The notes under the pieces were generated by a model that worked only from the letters and a program-made list of their open reading frames with translations, had not been told where the DNA came from and searched no databases. From positions 1 to 64,000 of the forward strand of contig NZ_ADGX01000040.1 of NCBI RefSeq assembly GCF_000177675.1: a stretch of DNA of 64,000 nt, given 5' to 3'. This document shows, piece after piece, positions 1,106 through 11,200 of the stretch. The position numbers and the translations under genes are program-made. Each line of letters starts with the position of its first letter. The stretch's first letter is position 1. This DNA is from Parafrankia sp. EUN1f. GTDB lineage: Bacteria > Actinomycetota > Actinomycetes > Frankiales > Frankiaceae.

Positions 1106-2725
1106 ATGGTCGAAGCCGAACTGACCAGGAACCGAAGGCTCGCCGTGCTCGGGATCTGTTCGATGAGCCTGCTCATCGTCGGGCTCGACAACACGATCGT
1201 GAACATCGCGCTGCCTTCGCTGCGGCGTGACTTCGACGCGTCCCCCGCCGGCCTGCAGTGGTCCATCGACAGCTACACCATCGTGCTGGCGAGCCTGCTC
1301 ATGCTCGCCGGCTCGATGGGGGACCGGCTGGGCCGCCGCCGGATCTTCCAGACCGGTCTCGCGCTGTTCACCCTCGGCTCCCTGCTGTGCAGCATCGCGC
1401 CCAGCCTGCACTGGCTGGTGGCGTTCCGGATGGTGCAGGCCGTCGGCGGCTCGATGCTCAACCCGGTGGCGATGTCGATCATCACGAACACGTTCACCGA
1501 CCCACGCGAGCGGGCGCGGGCCATCGGCGTCTGGGGGGCGGTGATCGGTATCAGTATGGCGCTCGGCCCGGTACTGGGCGGTGTCCTGGTCGAGTGGGTC
1601 GGCTGGCGTTCGATCTTCTGGATCAACATCCCGATCGGCCTGATCGCCCTGACCCTGGCCCAGCTGTACGTGCCGGAGTCACGCGCGGCGCGGCCACGGC
1701 GCCTGGACGCGGTCGGCCAGGTACTCGTGATCTTCATTCTCGCCGCGCTGACGTATTCACTCATCGCCGCGCCCGAGGCCGGCTGGACGTCCGCCAGGAC
1801 CCTCGGCCTGCTCGCCGGCGCCGGCGTCGCGGTGGCGCTGCTGGTGCGCTACGAGTCCCGCCGCGAGGAACCGCTGCTGGACGTCCGCCTGTTCCGCGTC
1901 GCGTCGTTCTCGGGGGCGACGCTGACCGCGGTGTGCGCGTTGGGGGCGCTCGGCGGCTCGCTGCTGCTCAACACCATCTACCTGCAGGACGTCCGCGGCT
2001 ACGAACCGCTGCATGCGGGCCTGGTGACGCTGCCGATGGCGGCGGGCATCATCATCGGCGCGCCGCTGTCGGGGCGGGCGGTCGCGCGGTTCGGTCCCAG
2101 GCCCTCGCTGCTCGCGGCGGGGGTCGGCCTCACGCTGGGCAGCCTCGCGATGGTCGGCTTCGACGCCGGCAGCTCGACCGGGCAGCTGCTGATCGCCTAC
2201 GTGGTGTTCGGGGCGGGCTTCGGGCTGGTGAACGCGCCGATCACGAACACCGCGGTCTCCGGCATGCCGGTCGAGCAGGCTGGAGTGGCCGCGGCGGTCG
2301 CCTCGACGAGCCGCCAGGTAGGCCAGTCGCTGGGCGTCGCACTGGTCGGGTCCGTCGCGGCGGTCACCGTCACGGCGGCGGCAGGTGGGGCTGGGGGCGG
2401 GGGCGTGTCGACGACCATGATCGATGCGATGAGCCCGGCCGGCCGGTGGGTCGTCGTCGCCGCCAGCGCGGCCACCCTGCTCCTGGGCCTGACGACCGCG
2501 CCTCGTCGCCGGCGCGTCGCCGGCGCGGTGGCGTCAGCAGTGTCAGCAGGGGCAGCAGGGTCAGCAGGGTCAGTGGGGTCAGCAGGGTCAGTGGGGTCCG
2601 CGGTGCCAGTGGCGTCACCCGGTGTTGCGAAGGCCGGCGGCGATGCCGTTGATGGTCAGCAGCAGGCCGCGGCGCAGGCGGGGATCCGCGTCGTCGCCGG
2701 CGGCCCGGGTGCGGGCCAGCAGTGA
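1106..2725 (+). CDS. MFS drug/metabolite exporter (DHA2-like, 14 TM type)
   Basis: Proton-coupled exporter of the major facilitator superfamily, acting in the cytoplasmic membrane. The start is set at ATG 1106 because an ideal Shine-Dalgarno (GGAGGTGAT, 1090-1098) sits just upstream and overlaps the alternative GTG at 1094. Visible family features are LDNTIVNIALPSLRRDF in the first helix, the loop motif GDRLGRRRIF, and the motif-C-like GPVLGG segment (ALGPVLGGVLVEWVGWR). At 539 residues with about 14 hydrophobic segments it fits the EmrB/QacA subfamily; the substrate is unknown. The last about 60 residues are a low-complexity Ala/Gly/Ser/Val tail (SAGSVGSAGSVG) that runs 111 bp into the convergent ppc gene, so the tail is probably a recent run-on and not transporter core. 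Confidence 0.85.
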   Translation: MVEAELTRNRRLAVLGICSMSLLIVGLDNTIVNIALPSLRRDFDASPAGLQWSIDSYTIVLASLLMLAGSMGDRLGRRRIFQTGLALFTLGSLLCSIAPSLHWLVAFRMVQAVGGSMLNPVAMSIITNTFTDPRERARAIGVWGAVIGISMALGPVLGGVLVEWVGWRSIFWINIPIGLIALTLAQLYVPESRAARPRRLDAVGQVLVIFILAALTYSLIAAPEAGWTSARTLGLLAGAGVAVALLVRYESRREEPLLDVRLFRVASFSGATLTAVCALGALGGSLLLNTIYLQDVRGYEPLHAGLVTLPMAAGIIIGAPLSGRAVARFGPRPSLLAAGVGLTLGSLAMVGFDAGSSTGQLLIAYVVFGAGFGLVNAPITNTAVSGMPVEQAGVAAAVASTSRQVGQSLGVALVGSVAAVTVTAAAGGAGGGGVSTTMIDAMSPAGRWVVVAASAATLLLGLTTAPRRRRVAGAVASAVSAGAAGSAGSVGSAGSVGSAVPVASPGVAKAGGDAVDGQQQAAAQAGIRVVAGGPGAGQQ

Positions 2726-5692
2726 TACCTGCAGGGCGTGCAGCGGGGCGAGATAGGCGTCCCGGACCTGCAGGGTGTGCCGCAGCACCGGTGCGGTTTC
2801 CAGCAGCTCCGACTGGCCGGTGACGCTCAGGACCTCGCGTACCGTGCGGTCGTACTCGGCCCGGATGACGTCGAGCAGGCCTGCCTGCGCGGGGTCCACC
2901 AGGGTGGACACGTAGCGGCGCGCGATCGTGAGGTCCGCCTTGGCCAGCGTCATCTGGACGTTGCCGAGGAAGGTGCGGAAGAAGTGCCAGGAGCGGTACA
3001 TCTCGGCCAGCTCGTCGCCGGCTCCGGCCGCGCGCGCAGCGGCCAGACCGGAGCCGACCCCGAACCAGCCGGGCAGCAGGATCCGTGACTGCGTCCAGCC
3101 GAACACCCAGGGGATGGCCCGCAGGTCGGCGAGCCCCCCGGTGCCACCGGGCCGCCGCGCCGGCCGGGAACCGATATTGAGGTTCCCCAGCTCGTCGACG
3201 GGCGTCGCGGCGAGGAAGAACGGCACCAGCGCCGGATCGGCCACCAGCGACCGGTAGGCGCCCTGCGCCGCGTCCGAGACGGCGGCCATCGTGTCGTCCC
3301 AGCCGGCGAGGACCTGATCGGGCTGCCGCGAGGTCCGGTGCAGCACCGAGGCCTCGACCACCGCGGCCAGGGCGATCTCCAGGTTCTGTCGGGCGAGGCT
3401 GGGCAGGATGTACTTGTCCGAGATCACCTCGCCCTGCTCGGTGACCTTGATCGGCCCGTCCAGGGTGCCGTACGGCTGGGCGAGGATCGCCTCCCCGGAG
3501 GGGCCACCGCCACGGCCGACCGAGCCGCCCCGGCCGTGGAACAGCCGCAGGACGACGCCGTGGGCCCGCGCGGTGTCCCGCAGCTCGCGCTGCGCCTTGT
3601 GGATCTCCCACTGGGACGCGGTGATGCCGGCGTCCTTGGACGAGTCCGAGTAGCCGAGCATGACCTCCTGCACGTCACCACGCGCCGCGACCAGCGAGCG
3701 GTAGGACGGATCGGCGAGCAGCCGCTCGAGCAGGCTGCCCGCCGCCCGCAGCTCGGTGACGGTCTCGAACAGCGGGACGAATCCGATGCGCGCCCACGCC
3801 CCGCCCGTGCCCGCCCCGGTGCCCGTGCCCGCCCCGGTGCCCGTGCCCGCCGCGGTGCCCGTGCCCGCCGCGGTGCCCGTGCCGGCCGCGGTGCCCGAGC
3901 CGGTTTCCGCTCCCGCGGAGCGGCCCGTGCCGACGAGCCCCGCCTCCCGTGCGAGGACGACGACCGCGAGGATGTCGTCGACGCCTCTGGTCATCGACAC
4001 GATGTAGCTCTCGATGACACCGTCGCCGTACAGGTCCAGCGCCCGGCGCACCGTGGTGAGCAGCTCGAAGGTCCGCGCGGCGCGTTCCGGCAGCGGCGGC
4101 GGGACCGCGCCGAGCAGCGGTCGGCGCCCCGCCAGCTCCGCCACCAGCAGCGCGAGCCGGGCCGGTCGGTCCAGGCTGGCGTAGGGGACGTCGAGCTCGC
4201 CGAGCTGGTCGTAGATCGCGCCGAGGGTCGCGTGATGGGCGTCGGCGTGCTCACGGATGTCGAGTGTCGCCAACGACAGCCCGGCGGCGTTCGCGGTCCG
4301 GATCGCGCGCAGCAGCGGCCCGTTCGCCACCAGCTCACCGTGGCTGGCGGCGAGGGAGGCCCGCATGAGCTCCAGCTCGTCCACCAGCTCGGTGATCCGC
4401 AGGTAGTCCTTGCCCGGCACATGCGGGGAGCCGGCGGCGAGCCTGGCCCGGGTGGCGGCCAGCCGGGCCAGGATGTAGCTGCATTTGAGCCGGTAGGGCT
4501 CCTCGGCGTTGAGCCGGATGAACCGGTCGTACACCTCGGGCAGCGCCGCCCGGTCCGCTGCCAGCGCGGCCCGCAGCCCGGCACCGATCTCCCCGACGAC
4601 CCGGGTGGACGCGGTCAGCTCACGGACCAGCCGGTCGAGCGCCGCGGTGAGCACCCTGATGCCGAACTCGTGCTGAAGGTTCAGTACCTCAAGGGTGACC
4701 GCCGGGGTGACGTTCGGGTTGCCGTCCCGGTCGCCGCCCGCCCACGAGCCGAACGTCAGCGGGCGGGCGGTGACCGGCAGTTCCACGCCGATCCGGGCCA
4801 GCGCCCGGTCCAGGTCCTCCAGCAGGTCCGGAAGGACCTCGGTGATGATCGACCCCAGGTAGTACGTGGCGGACCGGGCCTCATCCGCCGGCTTGGGCCG
4901 CTCGACCCGCAGCTCGTCGGTCTGCCACAGGACGTCCACCATCTCGGCGAGCCGCCGGGCCAGCCGCTCGTCGCCGGCGCCGGGGCGGCGCGGATCATCG
5001 GAGGCGTCGAGCAGATCCGCGATGCCGCGCAGGGTGTCCAGCACGGAGCGTCGGCTGGCCTCGGTGGGATGCGCTGTGAACACCGGCCGGAGCTCAAGGC
5101 GCCGCATCACCTCGGCGGGCAGACCCGGGTCCAGGCTGCCGTCGGCCACGGCGTCGGCGATCTGCTCGGTGAGCGCCTGCAGCCGCCCGCTCGACCGGTC
5201 GGAGATCTCCCGTGAGCGGTGCAGCTGCTCGGTGATGTTGGCCAGCTGGAAGTAGGCGCTGAACGCCCGGGCCAGCGGAATCGCCCTGGATGCGTCGACC
5301 TCGTCGAGCACCGCGGCGAGCTCGGCGCCGGCGTCCTCACCGCGGGCCAGCAGCCGGACCCGTTCGACCAGGTCAAGTAGCTCGGCGCCCTCGTGGCGGG
5401 TGAGCGCCTCACCGAGCAGCGTTCCCAGCCGGCGCACGTCGGCACGCACTGCCGCGTGGCGTGCGTCGGAGGAGACACCGCCGGAGAAACCACCCGGGTC
5501 CTGCGCCCGGCTCCGCGACGACGGCGACGAGGCCGGCGCCGTCGGCGCCGCCGGCGGCGGTGACGTCGGCGTTGGTGGCGGTGACGTCGGTTGTGACTTC
5601 GGTGGTGGTTGCGACTTTGGTCCCGCCTGCGCGCCGGCCGCGGGGCCGTCTGGTTCCGATGCGGGCGACGACGGGCCGGGGCGACTGGTCAA
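2615..5692 (-). CDS. ppc: Phosphoenolpyruvate carboxylase
   Basis: Carboxylates PEP with bicarbonate to oxaloacetate (anaplerosis, cytoplasm). Signature segments are in order: [10 protein letters not shown] with the catalytic His (about residue 205), [40 protein letters not shown] (about residue 720) and the conserved C-terminal LRNTG. At 1025 residues it is longer than the usual about 880-930. The excess is a Pro/Ser/Ala-rich N-terminus of about 75 residues and an internal Gly/Thr/Ala repeat (GTAAGT units, DNA about 3802-3905, 18-bp period). The TTG start at 5692 lacks a good ribosome site, so a shorter N-terminus is possible. The gene lies 10 bp after the M56 stop, suggesting co-transcription from the blaI side. 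Confidence 0.93.
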
Positions 5693-5702
5693 AGGACGTC
5701 TC

Positions 5703-7000
5703 TCAGAGGATCAGCAACAGGACCGGGGTGAGGAACACCCCCACCGCGGTGAGGTAGGCCGCGCCGGGCAGCCAGATCGGGACCGTCGGGGGGTCGAGCA
5801 GCCGGGAGATCCGGGCGACAACAGGTGTGTGCACGGGACTGCGCCGCTGGGCGCCGGGGCTTTCGCCGAGAAAGGTGGTCATCGTGGCGACGAGGCGGCC
5901 GGCCCCGCCGACGCCCAGCGCCGCCAGCGACTCGGGAGCGTTGCCCGGCGGCATGCCGGTCACCCCCAGCGTTCCGGCGGGCACCGCGGCACGGGTCACC
6001 CCGAGCCGGGCCAGTGCCCGCGCCAGCGTGCGCCCACTGGTCCGCTGCGCGGCGGCGTCATCCGCGAGCATCTCGACCAGCAGCGACACCGCGGCGGTGG
6101 CCTCGCGGGCGGGGCGCAGGAACGGGAAGGTGCGCTCCCAGGCCATGAAGGGCTGGATCACCAGGTCATGCCGGCCGGCGACGTGCGCCTCCTCGTGCGC
6201 GAGGACAGCGTCAAGCTCCTCCGGCGTCAGCGTCCGCAACAGCCCCTCGGAGACCACGACCCGCGCGTGCCGGCCGCCGGGAACGCAGTAGGCGACGGCG
6301 ACCGGATGGTCGAGAATGCGCAGCCAGGCGGCGCTGCGGGCCCGGTGCAGGCACAGGGTGCACCCCTCGCCGGGAAGCTCGGCACCGCCCCCTTCAGGCC
6401 CATCGGCCCTGCCAGGCCGCCCTCCGGCCCCGCGGGGGCGCCCATCGGCACTGCCAGGTCGCCTTCTGGACCTGCCGGGTCGGCCGGGTTGGCGTGGCCC
6501 GCGTTCGGGACGCCTGCGGGCGTCCCTGATCCCGCGGACTGGCCGTGGCCGGAGCTGCGGCCGTGGCCGTGGCCGTGGATGTGATCGTGGTTGTGGTCGC
6601 GGTGCCGGTGACCGGCTAGATCGACGAGGTGCCGGTGCCGATGACGTTCACGCAGCGTCGCCGCCGTCGACACGGCCAACACGCCGAACAGCCGGGCGGC
6701 CAGCGCGGCCGCGATCGCGAGACCGATGAGATTCATCCGGCCGAGCCCGACGAGTGGCTCGCCGGCCAGGAGATTGGCCGCGTGGTCGGCCATCGCGGCG
6801 GGGATGCCCTGCGACAACGGGGCCACAGTGAACGCCGCCGCGGCGAGCAGTGCGGACACCCCACCGGCCAGGCCGATCGCCTGCCACAGCACGATCGCGG
6901 CGCGCGGACAGCGGTGCGGCCAACGGGCGGCGGCCAGCAGGCGTGGGGCCGGCCATGCCAGCGCGCACGCGAACAGGGCGAGAAGGGCCGCGGTCGTCAT
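5703..7000 (-). pseudogene. M56 (BlaR1-like) membrane metallopeptidase, split by a frameshift
   Basis: The N-terminal part (ATG 7000 down to about 6400) encodes hydrophobic helices starting MTTAALLALFACALAW, then a His-rich stretch (HNHDHIHGHGHG) and PAG/PEG-type repeats. The C-terminal part is in another frame: RILDHPVAVAYCVPGGRHA runs into VVSEGLLRTLTPEEL and the zinc motif HEEAH (near 6195), ending in hydrophobic LTPVLLLIL. The zinc-domain frame is open upstream to at least 6480, so the two parts can be joined by one extra base in the repeat zone, for example in the C5 run near 6391. M56 peptidases work with BlaI repressors, and a blaI gene lies just upstream. It could be an inactivated gene, a sequencing indel, or two overlapping ORFs. 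The His-rich insertion is unusual. Confidence 0.7.
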
Positions 7001-7321
7001 GTCCAGCCTGACGCTACCGCTCTGCACCCGGACTGACTACGATTGCGCGCCGACCGCGAGCCCCATCTGACCGAATGCGCTGGTCATCGCAGTTTTGGGC
7101 CGCTGGCGGGTGACTTCGGTGACGTCCGGTAGTCCCCTGACAGTGGTCATGGCCAAAGGTCCCGTGCGGCGAAATGACCAGTGCGGGAGCGCGGGCGTGC
7201 GGGCCCGGGCCGGTCGTCGTGCGGTCACGACTGGTGGCCCGTGCCCGGGTCGTACCGCGTCAGGGCCGTTCCCGGCTGCCAGGGCCGTTCCCGGCTGGCT
7301 GTAGCTCCTGCCCCTGCTGCC

Positions 7322-7376
7322 GAGCAAGATCTGAGGATCGTGGTCGTCCGAACGACCAAAATCCTCAACTCTTCGC
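7322..7376. repeat. Palindromic intergenic repeat, hairpin form
   Basis: GAGCAAGATCTGAGGAT at 7322-7338 is mirrored by ATCCTCAACTCTTCGC at about 7361-7376, with an inner stem GGTCGT/ACGACC. This is a member of the dispersed family also seen at 608, 10974, 11044, 11139 and 45054. It lies beyond the 3' end of blaI (minus strand) and could act as a terminator there. Confidence 0.6.
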
Positions 7377-7440: not shown

Positions 7441-7962
7441 TCAGGCGCTCGAGGTCTCCGCGTCGAGGTCGACGTCGGTGCCGGCCTCGGCTCGCGCCGG
7501 GCCGCCGTCGGATCCGGCCGCCGCGGCCTTGGTGGACGCGTGTGCCTGCTCGCCGCTGCCGCCCGCGGCGCCGGGTGTGGTCTCGGCATCCGCCCCGGGC
7601 GTGCCGGCGGGGCCGGTCGGCTCCAGCGCGCGGCGCAGGATCTCGGCCTCCTCCGCGGAGACCGAGCCGACGAAGCGGACGAGCGCGGAGCCCCGGTCGT
7701 CGGCGGTGCCCAGAGCTTCCAGCATCGCCTCGGCGACCACCGTCTCCCGGCTGTCGGCCGCCGCGTAGCGGTGGGCGCGCGCGGCGCGCTGGCGGCGCAC
7801 GAAGCCCTTGCGCTCCAGACGCTCCAGCACTGTCAGCACGGTGGTGTAGGCGAGGTCGCGTTCGTGGTGCAGGCGGGCCGCGACATCACGTGCGGTCAGC
7901 CAGCCATCCGCGGACCACAGGACGTCCATGACCGACCGTTCCAGGTCACCCAGGCGAGCCAT
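7441..7962 (-). CDS. blaI: BlaI/MecI/CopY-family transcriptional repressor
   Basis: A 173-residue winged-helix repressor. The N-terminal domain is typical of the family: LGDLERSVMDVLW, then LTARDVAARL and AYTTVLTVLERLERKGFVRR for the recognition helix and wing. Family members dimerise on palindromes and are released when the partner M56 protease is activated. The C-terminal about 60 residues are an Ala/Gly-rich tail not seen in most homologues. The gene starts with ATG 8 bp from an imperfect copy of the operator (7970-7986), which implies autoregulation, and it diverges from cydAB across three perfect operator copies. The M56 gene follows on the same strand after a long gap that contains a hairpin repeat. 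Confidence 0.88.
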   Translation of the reverse strand: MARLGDLERSVMDVLWSADGWLTARDVAARLHHERDLAYTTVLTVLERLERKGFVRRQRAARAHRYAAADSRETVVAEAMLEALGTADDRGSALVRFVGSVSAEEAEILRRALEPTGPAGTPGADAETTPGAAGGSGEQAHASTKAAAAGSDGGPARAEAGTDVDLDAETSSA

Positions 7963-7969
7963 AGACCGA

Positions 7970-7986
7970 TCCTACGCCGCGTAGAA
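7970..7986. promoter_or_regulatory. Degenerate BlaI-type operator next to the blaI start
   Basis: TCCTACGCCGCGTAGAA matches the palindrome TTCTAC-N5-GTAGAA with one mismatch. It sits 8 bp upstream of the blaI ATG, so repressor binding here would block blaI transcription or its start. Confidence 0.6.
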
Positions 7987-8036
7987 CTTCCTGCCTGCAA
8001 GTTCGGCCAGGTCGCTCGATCTCACAACAAAAAATC

Positions 8037-8091
8037 TTCTACCGAACGTAGAATCTTCTACATCTCGTAGAATTTTCTACGGGACGTAGAA
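8037..8091. promoter_or_regulatory. Triple operator array TTCTAC-N5-GTAGAA upstream of cydA
   Basis: Three perfect 17-bp palindromes lie at 8037-8053, 8056-8072 and 8075-8091. The arms are identical in all three, while the 5-bp centres differ (CGAAC, ATCTC, GGGAC). The period is exactly 19 bp, so successive sites are offset by somewhat less than two helical turns. The array is 44-98 bp upstream of the cydA start, within the likely promoter. Conserved arms with free spacers argue for protein binding and not for a chance repeat. Confidence 0.8.
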
Positions 8092-8134: not shown

Positions 8135-9796
8135 ATGGTCCAAGCCGCCGCAGTTCTCACCGATGTCGCGGTGTTCTCCCACGTCGAGACGCTCTCGCTG
8201 GCTGCGGATGTGACCCGCGCGAGCGCACTGTCCACCGACCTGGCGCGCGCGCAGACCGCGATCTCGCTGGCGTTCCACATCTGTTTCGCGGTGTTCGGCG
8301 TCGGGATGCCGTGGCTCCTGTTGTTCGTCGAAGGCCGCTGGGTCCGCACCCGTGACCCGGTCTGGCTGGCGCTCACCCGCAAGTGGTCCAAGGCGTTCGC
8401 GGTGCTGTTCGCCGTCGGCGCAGTCTCCGGGACGGCACTGTCCTTCGAGTTCGGTCTGCTGTGGCCGGCCTTCATGGCCCGGTACGGCGGTGTGCTCGGA
8501 CTGTCGTTCACCCTGGAGGGCTTCGCGTTCTTCACCGAAGCGATCTTCATCGGCATGTACCTGTACGGCTGGAAGCGCCTCTCGCCGCGCGCCCACTGGA
8601 TGACGCTGTGGCCGATCGCCATCGCCGGGACGATGTCGACTCTCTTCATCATCACGGCCAACGCCTGGATGAACACCCCCGGTCACATCACAGAGGTCGA
8701 TGGCAAGGTCGTTTCGGCAGAGCCGTTCGCCCCGTTCCTGGCCGCGACCGCGCCGCATCAGCTCGTCCACATGCTGCTGGCTGCGCTGATGTGTACCGGC
8801 GGCATCGTCGCCGGGGTGTATGCCGTCGGCCTGCTGCGCGGCCGGCGCGACGCGTATCACCAGCGCGGACTGCGCGTCGGTCTGACCGTCCTGCTCGTCT
8901 GTGCCCCCCTGCAGCTGGTCGTCGGCGACATCGCGGCCCGGGTGGTCGGCGAGAAGCAGCCGATCAAGCTCGCCGCGATGGAGGGGATCGGCCACACCCA
9001 GACACACGCCCCATTGACCATCGGCGGGATCTACGACGAGGAGACCGGCGAGGTCCGGCACGGGATCGAGATCCCCAACCTGCTGTCGTTGATGGAGGGC
9101 TTCAGCGCCGATCACGAGATCACGGGCCTGTCGGCGGTGCCCCCGGAGGAACGGCCGGACGCGCGCCAGGTGCACCTGGCCTTCAACGTGATGGTCGGGC
9201 TCGGCTGTGCCCTGATCGCCTTCGCCGGCGCCACCGGCATCGCGGTCTGGCGCCGGCGCCGGCGCGGGGAACGGCCGCTGCTGCCCACCGGCAGACCGTG
9301 GCTGTGGGCGGCGGTCGCCTCGGGCCCGGCCTCCGTGGCGGCGATGATGGCCGGCTGGGAGGTGACCGAGGGCGGCCGTCAGCCCTGGATCGTCTACGGC
9401 CGGATGCGGGTGGACGAGGCTGTGACGACCACCGAGGGAATGCCGGTGATCTTCACCGGGACGGTCCTGCTCTACCTGGGCCTCGCGGTCGCGCTGGTGC
9501 TCATCCTGCGCCGGATGGCGACCGGCGGGCCGGTGCTCGGCGGCGCCATCGCCGAGACCACCACCACACCGGACATTCCGGATGCACGGCCCGCGCCGGC
9601 GGGCCAGCCCGCGCCGGCGCCGGAAGCCTCTGCCAGGCCGGACGCCTCAGCGTTGCCGGAACAGTCCGCGTTGCCGGGCGGCTCCGCGAGGTCGGAAGCC
9701 TCCGGATTCGACGCCCTGACAACCGAGCCGCCCGGCCGTCCCGGCGCGGGCCGTCCCGGCGCGGGCCGTGCCGGGCAGGAGGGGGACGCCCGATGA
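8135..9796 (+). CDS. cydA: Cytochrome bd ubiquinol/menaquinol oxidase subunit I
   Basis: Haem-bearing subunit of the high-affinity terminal oxidase, which oxidises quinol and reduces O2 in the membrane. The ATG start follows TAGGAGG (8121-8127). The N-terminal helix ARAQTAISLAFHICF carries the conserved His, HQLVHMLLAALM carries another haem ligand region, and the family signature GWEVTEGGRQPW is present near residue 410. The last about 75 residues are a Pro/Ala/Ser-rich tail (PAPAGQPAPAPEAS, then PGAGRPGAGR) not needed for the core. The TGA overlaps the cydB ATG (ATGA), so the two are translationally coupled. The upstream operators suggest control by the adjacent BlaI repressor. Confidence 0.93.
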   Translation: MVQAAAVLTDVAVFSHVETLSLAADVTRASALSTDLARAQTAISLAFHICFAVFGVGMPWLLLFVEGRWVRTRDPVWLALTRKWSKAFAVLFAVGAVSGTALSFEFGLLWPAFMARYGGVLGLSFTLEGFAFFTEAIFIGMYLYGWKRLSPRAHWMTLWPIAIAGTMSTLFIITANAWMNTPGHITEVDGKVVSAEPFAPFLAATAPHQLVHMLLAALMCTGGIVAGVYAVGLLRGRRDAYHQRGLRVGLTVLLVCAPLQLVVGDIAARVVGEKQPIKLAAMEGIGHTQTHAPLTIGGIYDEETGEVRHGIEIPNLLSLMEGFSADHEITGLSAVPPEERPDARQVHLAFNVMVGLGCALIAFAGATGIAVWRRRRRGERPLLPTGRPWLWAAVASGPASVAAMMAGWEVTEGGRQPWIVYGRMRVDEAVTTTEGMPVIFTGTVLLYLGLAVALVLILRRMATGGPVLGGAIAETTTTPDIPDARPAPAGQPAPAPEASARPDASALPEQSALPGGSARSEASGFDALTTEPPGRPGAGRPGAGRAGQEGDAR

Positions 9797-10800
9797 CCGC
9801 CGCGGACCTGCTCGCCATCGTGATGGTGCTCGGGCTCACCGCCTATGCCCTTACCGGCGGCGCCGACTTCGGAGGAGGGGTCTGGGACCTGTTCGCCCGC
9901 GGCCGTGATGCCGCGGACCAGCGCCGGCTCGTCTCCGCGGCGCTCGGCCCGATCTGGGAGGCGAACCACGTCTGGCTCATCTTCGTCGTGGTGATGATGT
10001 TCAGCGGTTTCCCGGCGGCGTTCGGTGTCGTCGGTTCGACCCTGGAGATCCCGCTGATCTGTGCGCTCGCCGGCATCGTGCTGCGCGGCGCGGCCTACGT
10101 GTACCGGGCGTACGGCTCAGGCGCCGCCGGGCCGGATCACTGGTGGGGTCACGTGTTCGCGGTCTCGTCGGCGATCACGCCGGTCGCCCTCGGGGTGGCT
10201 GGCGCCGCGCTCGCCACCGGTGACGTCGCCGAAGGCGCACCGCTCACCCCGGTGAAGAGCGCCTTCGGGATCCTCTGCGGTGTCTTCGCGCTCGCGGTGA
10301 CCGCCTTCCTGGCGGCGGTGTACCTGTGCCGCGACGCGGCCGCCAGCGCCGAGACGGCGCATCTGGTCCCGGGCTTCCGGCGGCGCGCGCTCGGCGGTGC
10401 GGTCGTGTCCGGGCTGCTTGCCGCCGCGCTGTTGCCTCTGCTGTGGTCCGAGGCGCCGGTGGTCGCGGATCGGTTCGTCGACCGTTCGATCCCGTTCGTC
10501 GTGATCTCCGCGATCGGTGGGGTGTCCTCGCTGGTGGCGCTGTGGCGGCACAGGTTCACGACGGCGCGTGTGACGGCGGGTCTCGCGGTCGCCGGCGTGC
10601 TGTGGGGCTGGGCCGCCGCGCAGTACCCGGATCTCGTGATGGGCCAGGCGACGGTCGACTCGGCCGCCGCCCCCTCGGCCAACATCGTGGCGATGCTGAT
10701 CGCGGTCTGCTGCGGGCTCGTCATCCTGGTGCCTTCACTGTGGATGCTGTTCCGCCTGTTCTCCAGCCCGGAGGTGTCCAGCCCCGAGGCCAGGTCCTGA
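9793..10800 (+). CDS. cydB: Cytochrome bd oxidase subunit II
   Basis: The 335-residue partner of CydA, an integral membrane subunit without haem ligands that stabilises the complex. Conserved features are TGGADFGGGVWDLF near the start, GPIWEANHVWLIF and FPAAFGVV. The start overlaps the cydA stop by 4 bp. No cydCD genes follow; instead there is a spacer full of tandem and palindromic repeats, so assembly factors must lie elsewhere. Confidence 0.93.
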   Translation: MTAADLLAIVMVLGLTAYALTGGADFGGGVWDLFARGRDAADQRRLVSAALGPIWEANHVWLIFVVVMMFSGFPAAFGVVGSTLEIPLICALAGIVLRGAAYVYRAYGSGAAGPDHWWGHVFAVSSAITPVALGVAGAALATGDVAEGAPLTPVKSAFGILCGVFALAVTAFLAAVYLCRDAAASAETAHLVPGFRRRALGGAVVSGLLAAALLPLLWSEAPVVADRFVDRSIPFVVISAIGGVSSLVALWRHRFTTARVTAGLAVAGVLWGWAAAQYPDLVMGQATVDSAAAPSANIVAMLIAVCCGLVILVPSLWMLFRLFSSPEVSSPEARS

Positions 10801-11043: not shown

Positions 11044-11200
11044 GGCAAGAGTTGAGGATCGTGGTCGTCGGGACGACCAAAATCCCATGATCTTCAAGCG
11101 GTGACCTCGGGTCGCACCTTGGGTAACCGTTGCGACCGGGCAAGAGTTGAGGATCGTGGTCGTTGGGACGACCGAAATCCCATGATCTTCGAGCGGTGAC
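11044..11200. repeat. Two 62-bp copies of the palindromic repeat in direct order
   Basis: Copies at 11044-11105 and 11139-11200 share GGCAAGAGTTGAGGATCG, an inner stem GGTCGT/ACGACC and the tail CCATGATCTTC. They differ at only three positions. Each can form a stable hairpin on either strand. Confidence 0.75.

Follow-up and report, generated by a model that had tools for sequence, protein, structure and literature searches.

In Frankia and other Actinobacteria, a BlaI-type regulator paired with a sensorless M56 metalloprotease is the probable controller of cytochrome bd oxidase and of a wider set of oxidase, haem and copper genes

Mycobacteria, in which cytochrome bd oxidase contributes to drug tolerance, have a BlaI-M56 pair related to the one described here. 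M. tuberculosis BlaI is reported to bind to the promoters of cytochrome bd and ATP synthase (PMC5473688, citing Sala 2009), and Rv1303 is an M. tuberculosis BlaI target supported by EMSA (PMC12565901). The mycobacterial BlaR protein is without a penicillin sensor (PMC5473688). The cyanobacterial PetRP pair senses copper and replaces a copper electron carrier with one that contains haem (PMC7896320, PMC13421787). In the literature that we searched, which consisted of papers available without a subscription, we found no report of BlaI control of cydAB outside the mycobacteria. Given that M. tuberculosis BlaI binding and PetRP have already been reported, the findings presented here extend existing knowledge. 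What appears to be new in the literature searched is a conserved module of Frankia and other Actinobacteria in which blaI-M56 and cydAB are divergent and associated with tandem operators; a BlaI regulon of haem, copper and oxidase-assembly genes in these organisms likewise appears to be new there.

The window, by which we mean the whole 64,000-nucleotide stretch of DNA that was analyzed, carries blaI on the reverse strand (7441-7962) and, divergent from it across a spacer of 172 bp, the forward-strand genes cydA (8135-9796; Pfam Cyt_bd_oxida_I, 8.2e-134) and cydB (9793-10800; Pfam Cyt_bd_oxida_II, 9.6e-59), which encode subunits I and II of cytochrome bd oxidase. The blaI product is a BlaI/MecI/CopY-family repressor (Pfam Penicillinase_R, 5.8e-24). 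It scores 85.1 bits against the winged-helix domain PF03965, for which the curated cut-off is 22.6, and its best match in the PDB is M. tuberculosis BlaI (2g9w, E 2.3e-26); against the CopY model it reaches 35.5 bits, far under the cut-off of 121.95 bits. The gene for an M56/M48-type membrane metalloprotease, a BlaR partner without a penicillin-binding sensor, lies at 5703-7000 on the reverse strand, and 3' of it lies the phosphoenolpyruvate carboxylase gene, ppc (2615-5692, reverse strand; Pfam PEPcase; start codon uncertain). Divergence of the blaI-M56 pair from cydAB is seen in four Frankia genera. It had been suggested in a preliminary description of this DNA that ppc belongs to the same unit as the M56 gene; such a shared unit is possible, and the suggestion is weakly borne out, with the gene order of two Frankia genera in its favor and the other genera, together with the lack of any operator upstream of ppc in the loci compared, against it. 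In several intergenic places (7311-7375, 11047-11085 and 11142-11180) the window also carries a short interspersed repeat that contains a dyad of the GTCGTCCGAACGAC type.

Within the spacer we observed three perfect copies of the palindrome TTCTAC-N5-GTAGAA with a period of exactly 19 bp, at 8037-8053 (copy 1, on the cydA side; TTCTACCGAACGTAGAA), 8056-8072 (copy 2; TTCTACATCTCGTAGAA) and 8075-8091 (copy 3; TTCTACGGGACGTAGAA), and on the blaI side a fourth copy with one mismatch (7970-7986; TCCTACGCCGCGTAGAA), none of the four being assigned to a strand. These agree exactly with the three perfect palindromes and the near-perfect copy at the blaI start that the preliminary description had placed here. 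The copies had also been said to fill the spacer; they occupy both gene starts and do not quite fill it, since the perfect trio hugs cydA, 43 bp upstream of its ATG, the fourth copy hugs blaI, with 7 bp between its end and the blaI ATG, and a 50-bp gap separates the two. Copy 4 is probably the site of blaI autoregulation. Judged by sequence, dyad operators are present both at the regulator's own promoter and at the promoter of its target, as in the BlaI/MecI family.

The number of perfect copies expected in the window by chance is 1.6e-4 from base composition and 3.2e-5 from a first-order Markov model. A scan of the whole 9.35-Mb genome, a check that had been proposed at the outset, found eight perfect copies, compared with 0.023 (base composition) or 0.005 (first-order Markov) expected. 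Sites with two or fewer mismatches number 134 in the genome scan and 166 for the reversed control, and imperfect sites are therefore uninformative outside promoters. The proposed comparison of related blaI-cydA spacers revealed the motif to be present, not absent, with palindromes at the blaI and cydA starts kept in orthologous spacers of several Frankia genera. Copies 1 and 2 are kept in six congeners, and the number of cydA-side copies is three in the window and in G004 and two in four other congeners (G001, G002, G003 and G005), which have one 19-bp unit fewer at copy 3. Among the six congeners, the cydA-side copies have constant arms and differing centers, as had been claimed for the whole array; the claim does not extend to the blaI-side copy, all 17 bp of which are constant, center included. 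A near-identical copy lies just 5' of blaI in most of the Frankiaceae genomes that hold this gene. Chance or a neutral short tandem repeat might be suspected, since the 19-bp unit is duplicated and genomes differ in its number by whole units. However, the arms are kept while the centers diverge, the palindrome recurs singly at unlinked genes, and eight copies stand in the genome where fewer than 0.03 are expected. We give this explanation next to no credence, and conservation across genomes effectively refutes it.

Across 29 Frankiaceae genomes we found 102 perfect palindromes, compared with 3 for the reversed control. Fetched loci, covering most places of these copies, hold 81 perfect sites, 74 of which lie at the starts of a few recurring genes (within about -60 to +450 bp around the gene start, mostly less than 100 bp), a proportion that is partly circular within the family because some regulon genes were recognized by adjoining a site. 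The recurrence of the same list across genera is independent of this proximity-based picking. Grouped by common neighboring genes and identified by Pfam, the regulon genes are cydA, including a second cydAB with a tandem pair of sites; hemE-hemG (URO-D and HemG-like oxidase); copC with a CopD/CtaG fusion, copD/ctaG (CopC and CopD/CtaG); the gene for a TlpA-like lipoprotein (TlpA-like); a flavin monooxygenase gene; ctaE (COX3); a divergent SCO1/PCuAC pair (SCO1 and PCuAC); and the gene for a small membrane protein with no Pfam match. In genus g6, where remote cydAB genes were located by fetching motif sites, cydAB lies away from blaI, and all five fetched cydAB loci are still preceded by sites: four by a tandem pair 18-19 bp apart, and one by a perfect site with a weaker site 23 bp off.

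In seven of the fetched Frankiaceae loci (L079:2668-3084, L068, L076, L087, L238, L241 and L247) a palindrome stands where the small membrane protein starts, and in genus g6 this protein adjoins copC and copD; it may be a new copper or oxidase assembly factor. A single site lies upstream of an Rrf2-family regulator gene, possibly NO-sensing, at L095:3137-3568. One perfect site (L254, G006:C140) comes from a Frankiaceae assembly and lies in strikingly AT-rich DNA that is possibly foreign or contaminating. Three single-mismatch sites (L039, L040 and L256) were rejected as operators; they lie inside coding sequence and were taken as chance.

The motif is rare across a class-wide sample of 118 genomes. 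Matches picked without reference to BlaI were followed up in five genomes that are neither Frankia nor Arthrobacter-like; the motif lies between blaI and a divergent cydA in three of them, at a blaI-M56 pair in one, and without a recognized neighbor in one. An M56 partner is present in all 80 of the named actinobacterial blaI loci. These loci were chosen by similarity to the query, so the 34 of 80 with cydA within the fetched flank of about 7 kb, 31 of them with perfect sites, are not a census, and the 46 with no cydA nearby count against a general link. The layout of blaI/M56, operators and cydAB occurs in Arthrobacter, Pseudarthrobacter, Sinomonas, Microbacterium, Herbiconiux, Agrococcus, Glaciihabitans, Catenulispora, Frankia and others. 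Since most of the CydA proteins at these loci are only about 28% identical to that of the window, the link between blaI and cydAB spans two CydA types.

Two genomes, labeled by gene similarity as Arthrobacter-like (G025) and Mycobacterium-like (G026), provide further targets. In the former, sites lie upstream of hmp (flavohaemoglobin), hemQ and an ABC-ABC-ctaA unit, and another lies upstream of a His-phosphatase gene that has a TlpA-like gene after it. In the latter, the variant TACTAC-N5-GTCGTA is found at cydA and near an atpI/Rv1303-like gene, and a variant palindrome is found at blaI too. Of the M. tuberculosis-type targets, cydA and atpI-like sites occur in G026 and ABC-ctaA in G025; in the window genome, cydA is among the perfect sites, and atpI and ctaA are not. 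In Mycobacterium-like and Streptosporangiaceae-like genomes the degenerate pattern TWCKAC-N5-GTMGWA shows no excess over the control, and targets in these are therefore identified by position only.

The palindromes might instead belong to another regulator of respiration, such as Rex, Crp or a redox regulator, with the adjacency of blaI being incidental. Their TAC/GTA arms resemble MecI/BlaI/CopY boxes and not the Rex or Crp consensus, which counts against this. PMC5355995 and PMC7739888 lend the idea some support, describing control of aerobic metabolism genes by Rex in Streptomyces and of M. smegmatis cydAB by Crp, respectively. Yet nearly all orthologues have a copy where blaI starts, the blaI genes of Streptosporangiaceae and mycobacteria likewise have clade-specific variants of the palindrome at their starts, and the scan with the motif alone leads back to blaI-M56 pairs, and so we regard another regulator as very unlikely. 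At Streptosporangiaceae blaI genes (L136-L138, L142, L146 and similar loci) the palindromes are double, with CTCTAC-N5-GTAGTA and TACTAC-N5-GTAG overlapping 15 bp apart, at about 6952 and 6967 of the loci, and no cydAB is nearby. A Microbispora-like genome (L234:5939-8000, G039) has a second BlaI-M56 pair beside two perfect palindromes 18 bp apart, which precede the gene for a membrane-anchored protein.

The M56 proteins of congeners contain HEEAH and several hydrophobic segments, as expected of an HExxH membrane protease. In Pfam, an intact congener protein scores 41.3 bits against M48 (cut-off 20.3) and 20.2 bits against M56, under the cut-off of 31. The window copy is not an intact gene: its frame is split in two near 6395, where a run rich in G differs in length by one base, a difference that from the sequence could be either a sequencing error or a real loss, and the gene is intact in congeners such as the sister genome G004. 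A conserved CxxC metal site was considered for the M56 proteins and dropped, as it is not kept across all orthologues. By analogy with BlaR1 and PetP, the M56 protein is likely to be the trigger for BlaI removal.

A BlaI/BlaR system of the classical kind, sensing beta-lactams and controlling cydAB as well, would suit the family names, and in M. tuberculosis BlaI regulates blaC and beta-lactam exposure raises blaI-blaR and cydAB (PMC5473688). However, the M56 proteins, of 330-433 aa, stop after the last hydrophobic segment, Pfam sees the protease alone in the intact congener copy with no penicillin-binding sensor domain, and the mycobacterial BlaR shares this lack (PMC5473688). Moreover, no beta-lactamase gene was recognized beside the fetched sites. 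A beta-lactam sensor role for the M56 protein is rejected on the absence of the domain, and a beta-lactam system as a whole strikes us as highly improbable. Likewise, the cell-envelope or protease signal put forward in the preliminary description is not established, given the missing penicillin sensor, a regulon of oxidase, haem and copper genes, and the broken M56 frame.

Sequence and conservation point to a candidate -10 element of blaI, TAGGAT (7969-7974, reverse strand), that overlaps operator copy 4 and lies 6 nt from the ATG, so that the blaI start may be leaderless. They likewise point to a candidate -10 element of cydA, TAGAAT (8049-8054, forward strand), that overlaps the right arm of copy 1; another candidate for cydA is at 8068-8073. 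A consensus scan of the spacer promoters found no sigma-70 consensus pair. Since the operators overlap candidate -10 elements, we favor repression, and the overlap would fit repression by blocking of RNA polymerase; PetR, a related regulator, both represses and activates, which counts against assuming repression alone.

We propose that BlaI, encoded next to the palindromes, uses them as its operators. BlaI dimers bound to the three tandem copies would block the cydAB promoter, BlaI on the fourth copy would limit blaI transcription, and BlaI at single copies elsewhere would act on genes involved in making haem, handling copper and assembling oxidases, the presence of such copies suggesting that BlaI is a regulator of terminal-oxidase supply. 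The membrane metalloprotease next door, once triggered by its putative signal, would remove BlaI. The sequence itself shows the operators and how they are conserved, as well as the regulon and the arrangement of the genes, and from these we infer BlaI binding and repression rather than activation. Altogether, BlaI very probably controls cydAB and a wider oxidase, haem and copper regulon. That the palindromes are BlaI operators with cydAB as a target, as originally proposed, is strongly supported by conservation, by relocation of the sites with cydAB and by the reported binding of the orthologous M. tuberculosis BlaI to cyd and atp promoters.

In a more specific version of this explanation, the pair is PetRP-like and its M56 protease responds to copper or to haem-copper oxidase failure, selecting copper-free cytochrome bd or aa3 and adjusting haem and copper supply. 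PetR belongs to the BlaI family, and PetP is a BlaR-type protease that needs copper to degrade PetR (PMC7896320, PMC13421787); by sequence, the present system also combines a BlaI-family regulator and a BlaR-type protease with electron-transfer genes as targets. These targets include copC, copD/ctaG, SCO1, PCuAC, ctaE, ctaA, haem genes and a copper-free oxidase, and the Frankia M56 loops are His-rich, often with a CxLCEH motif. Among Frankiaceae M56 proteins, however, that motif is absent in L117 and altered in L119 and L120, it is also absent in L122, and copper-triggered loss of a cydAB repressor would raise bd oxidase, not lower it. With hmp and a gene for an Rrf2-type regulator also at these sites, NO could just as well be the signal, a link made possible by L095 and the flavohaemoglobin site in G025. 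We thus hold the copper or oxidase-status switch only tentatively. Its extension across Actinobacteria seems to us rather unlikely; here BlaI and a sensorless M56 protease would form a switch dedicated to sensing the supply of copper or the failure of terminal oxidases. Through proteolysis this switch would set the balance between copper-free cytochrome bd and haem-copper oxidase, along with the delivery of haem and copper, and control of beta-lactam resistance would be a side branch in other lineages.

Control of cydAB and its companion genes by BlaI would reassign a regulator family named for antibiotic resistance to core respiration in a large bacterial phylum. The outcome is a precise operator, a list of targets, and natural experiments by which the signal can be tested, namely the moved cydAB genes and the unrelated types of CydA.

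The staphylococcal BlaI-BlaR1 and MecI-MecR1 systems share with this locus the repressor family, the divergent operator layout and autoregulation. They differ in that BlaR1 and MecR1 have an extracellular penicillin-binding sensor of their own and control beta-lactam resistance. CopY, a copper-responsive BlaI-family repressor, is similar in its family fold and its TAC/GTA-type box; unlike the regulator proposed here, it senses the metal itself with no protease, and the window BlaI falls far short of the CopY model. PetR-PetP is similar in joining a BlaI-family regulator to a BlaR-type protease and in the choice of a copper or haem electron-transfer protein, and differs in acting on plastocyanin and cytochrome c6, through four genes, and in that its copper response has been demonstrated. 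M. tuberculosis BlaI-BlaR (Rv1846c-Rv1845c) provides the closest BlaI structure, 2g9w, and has an M56 partner without a penicillin sensor, with BlaI binding at the cytochrome bd and ATP synthase promoters reported in PMC5473688 and PMC12565901. In contrast to M. tuberculosis, Frankia and Micrococcaceae have a divergent arrangement of blaI-M56 and cydAB in which tandem operators are spaced by about 19-24 bp, their operator arms read TTCTAC/GTAGAA where a mycobacterial-type genome has TACGAC/GTAGTA or TACTAC/GTCGTA, and haem and copper genes are prominent among their targets.
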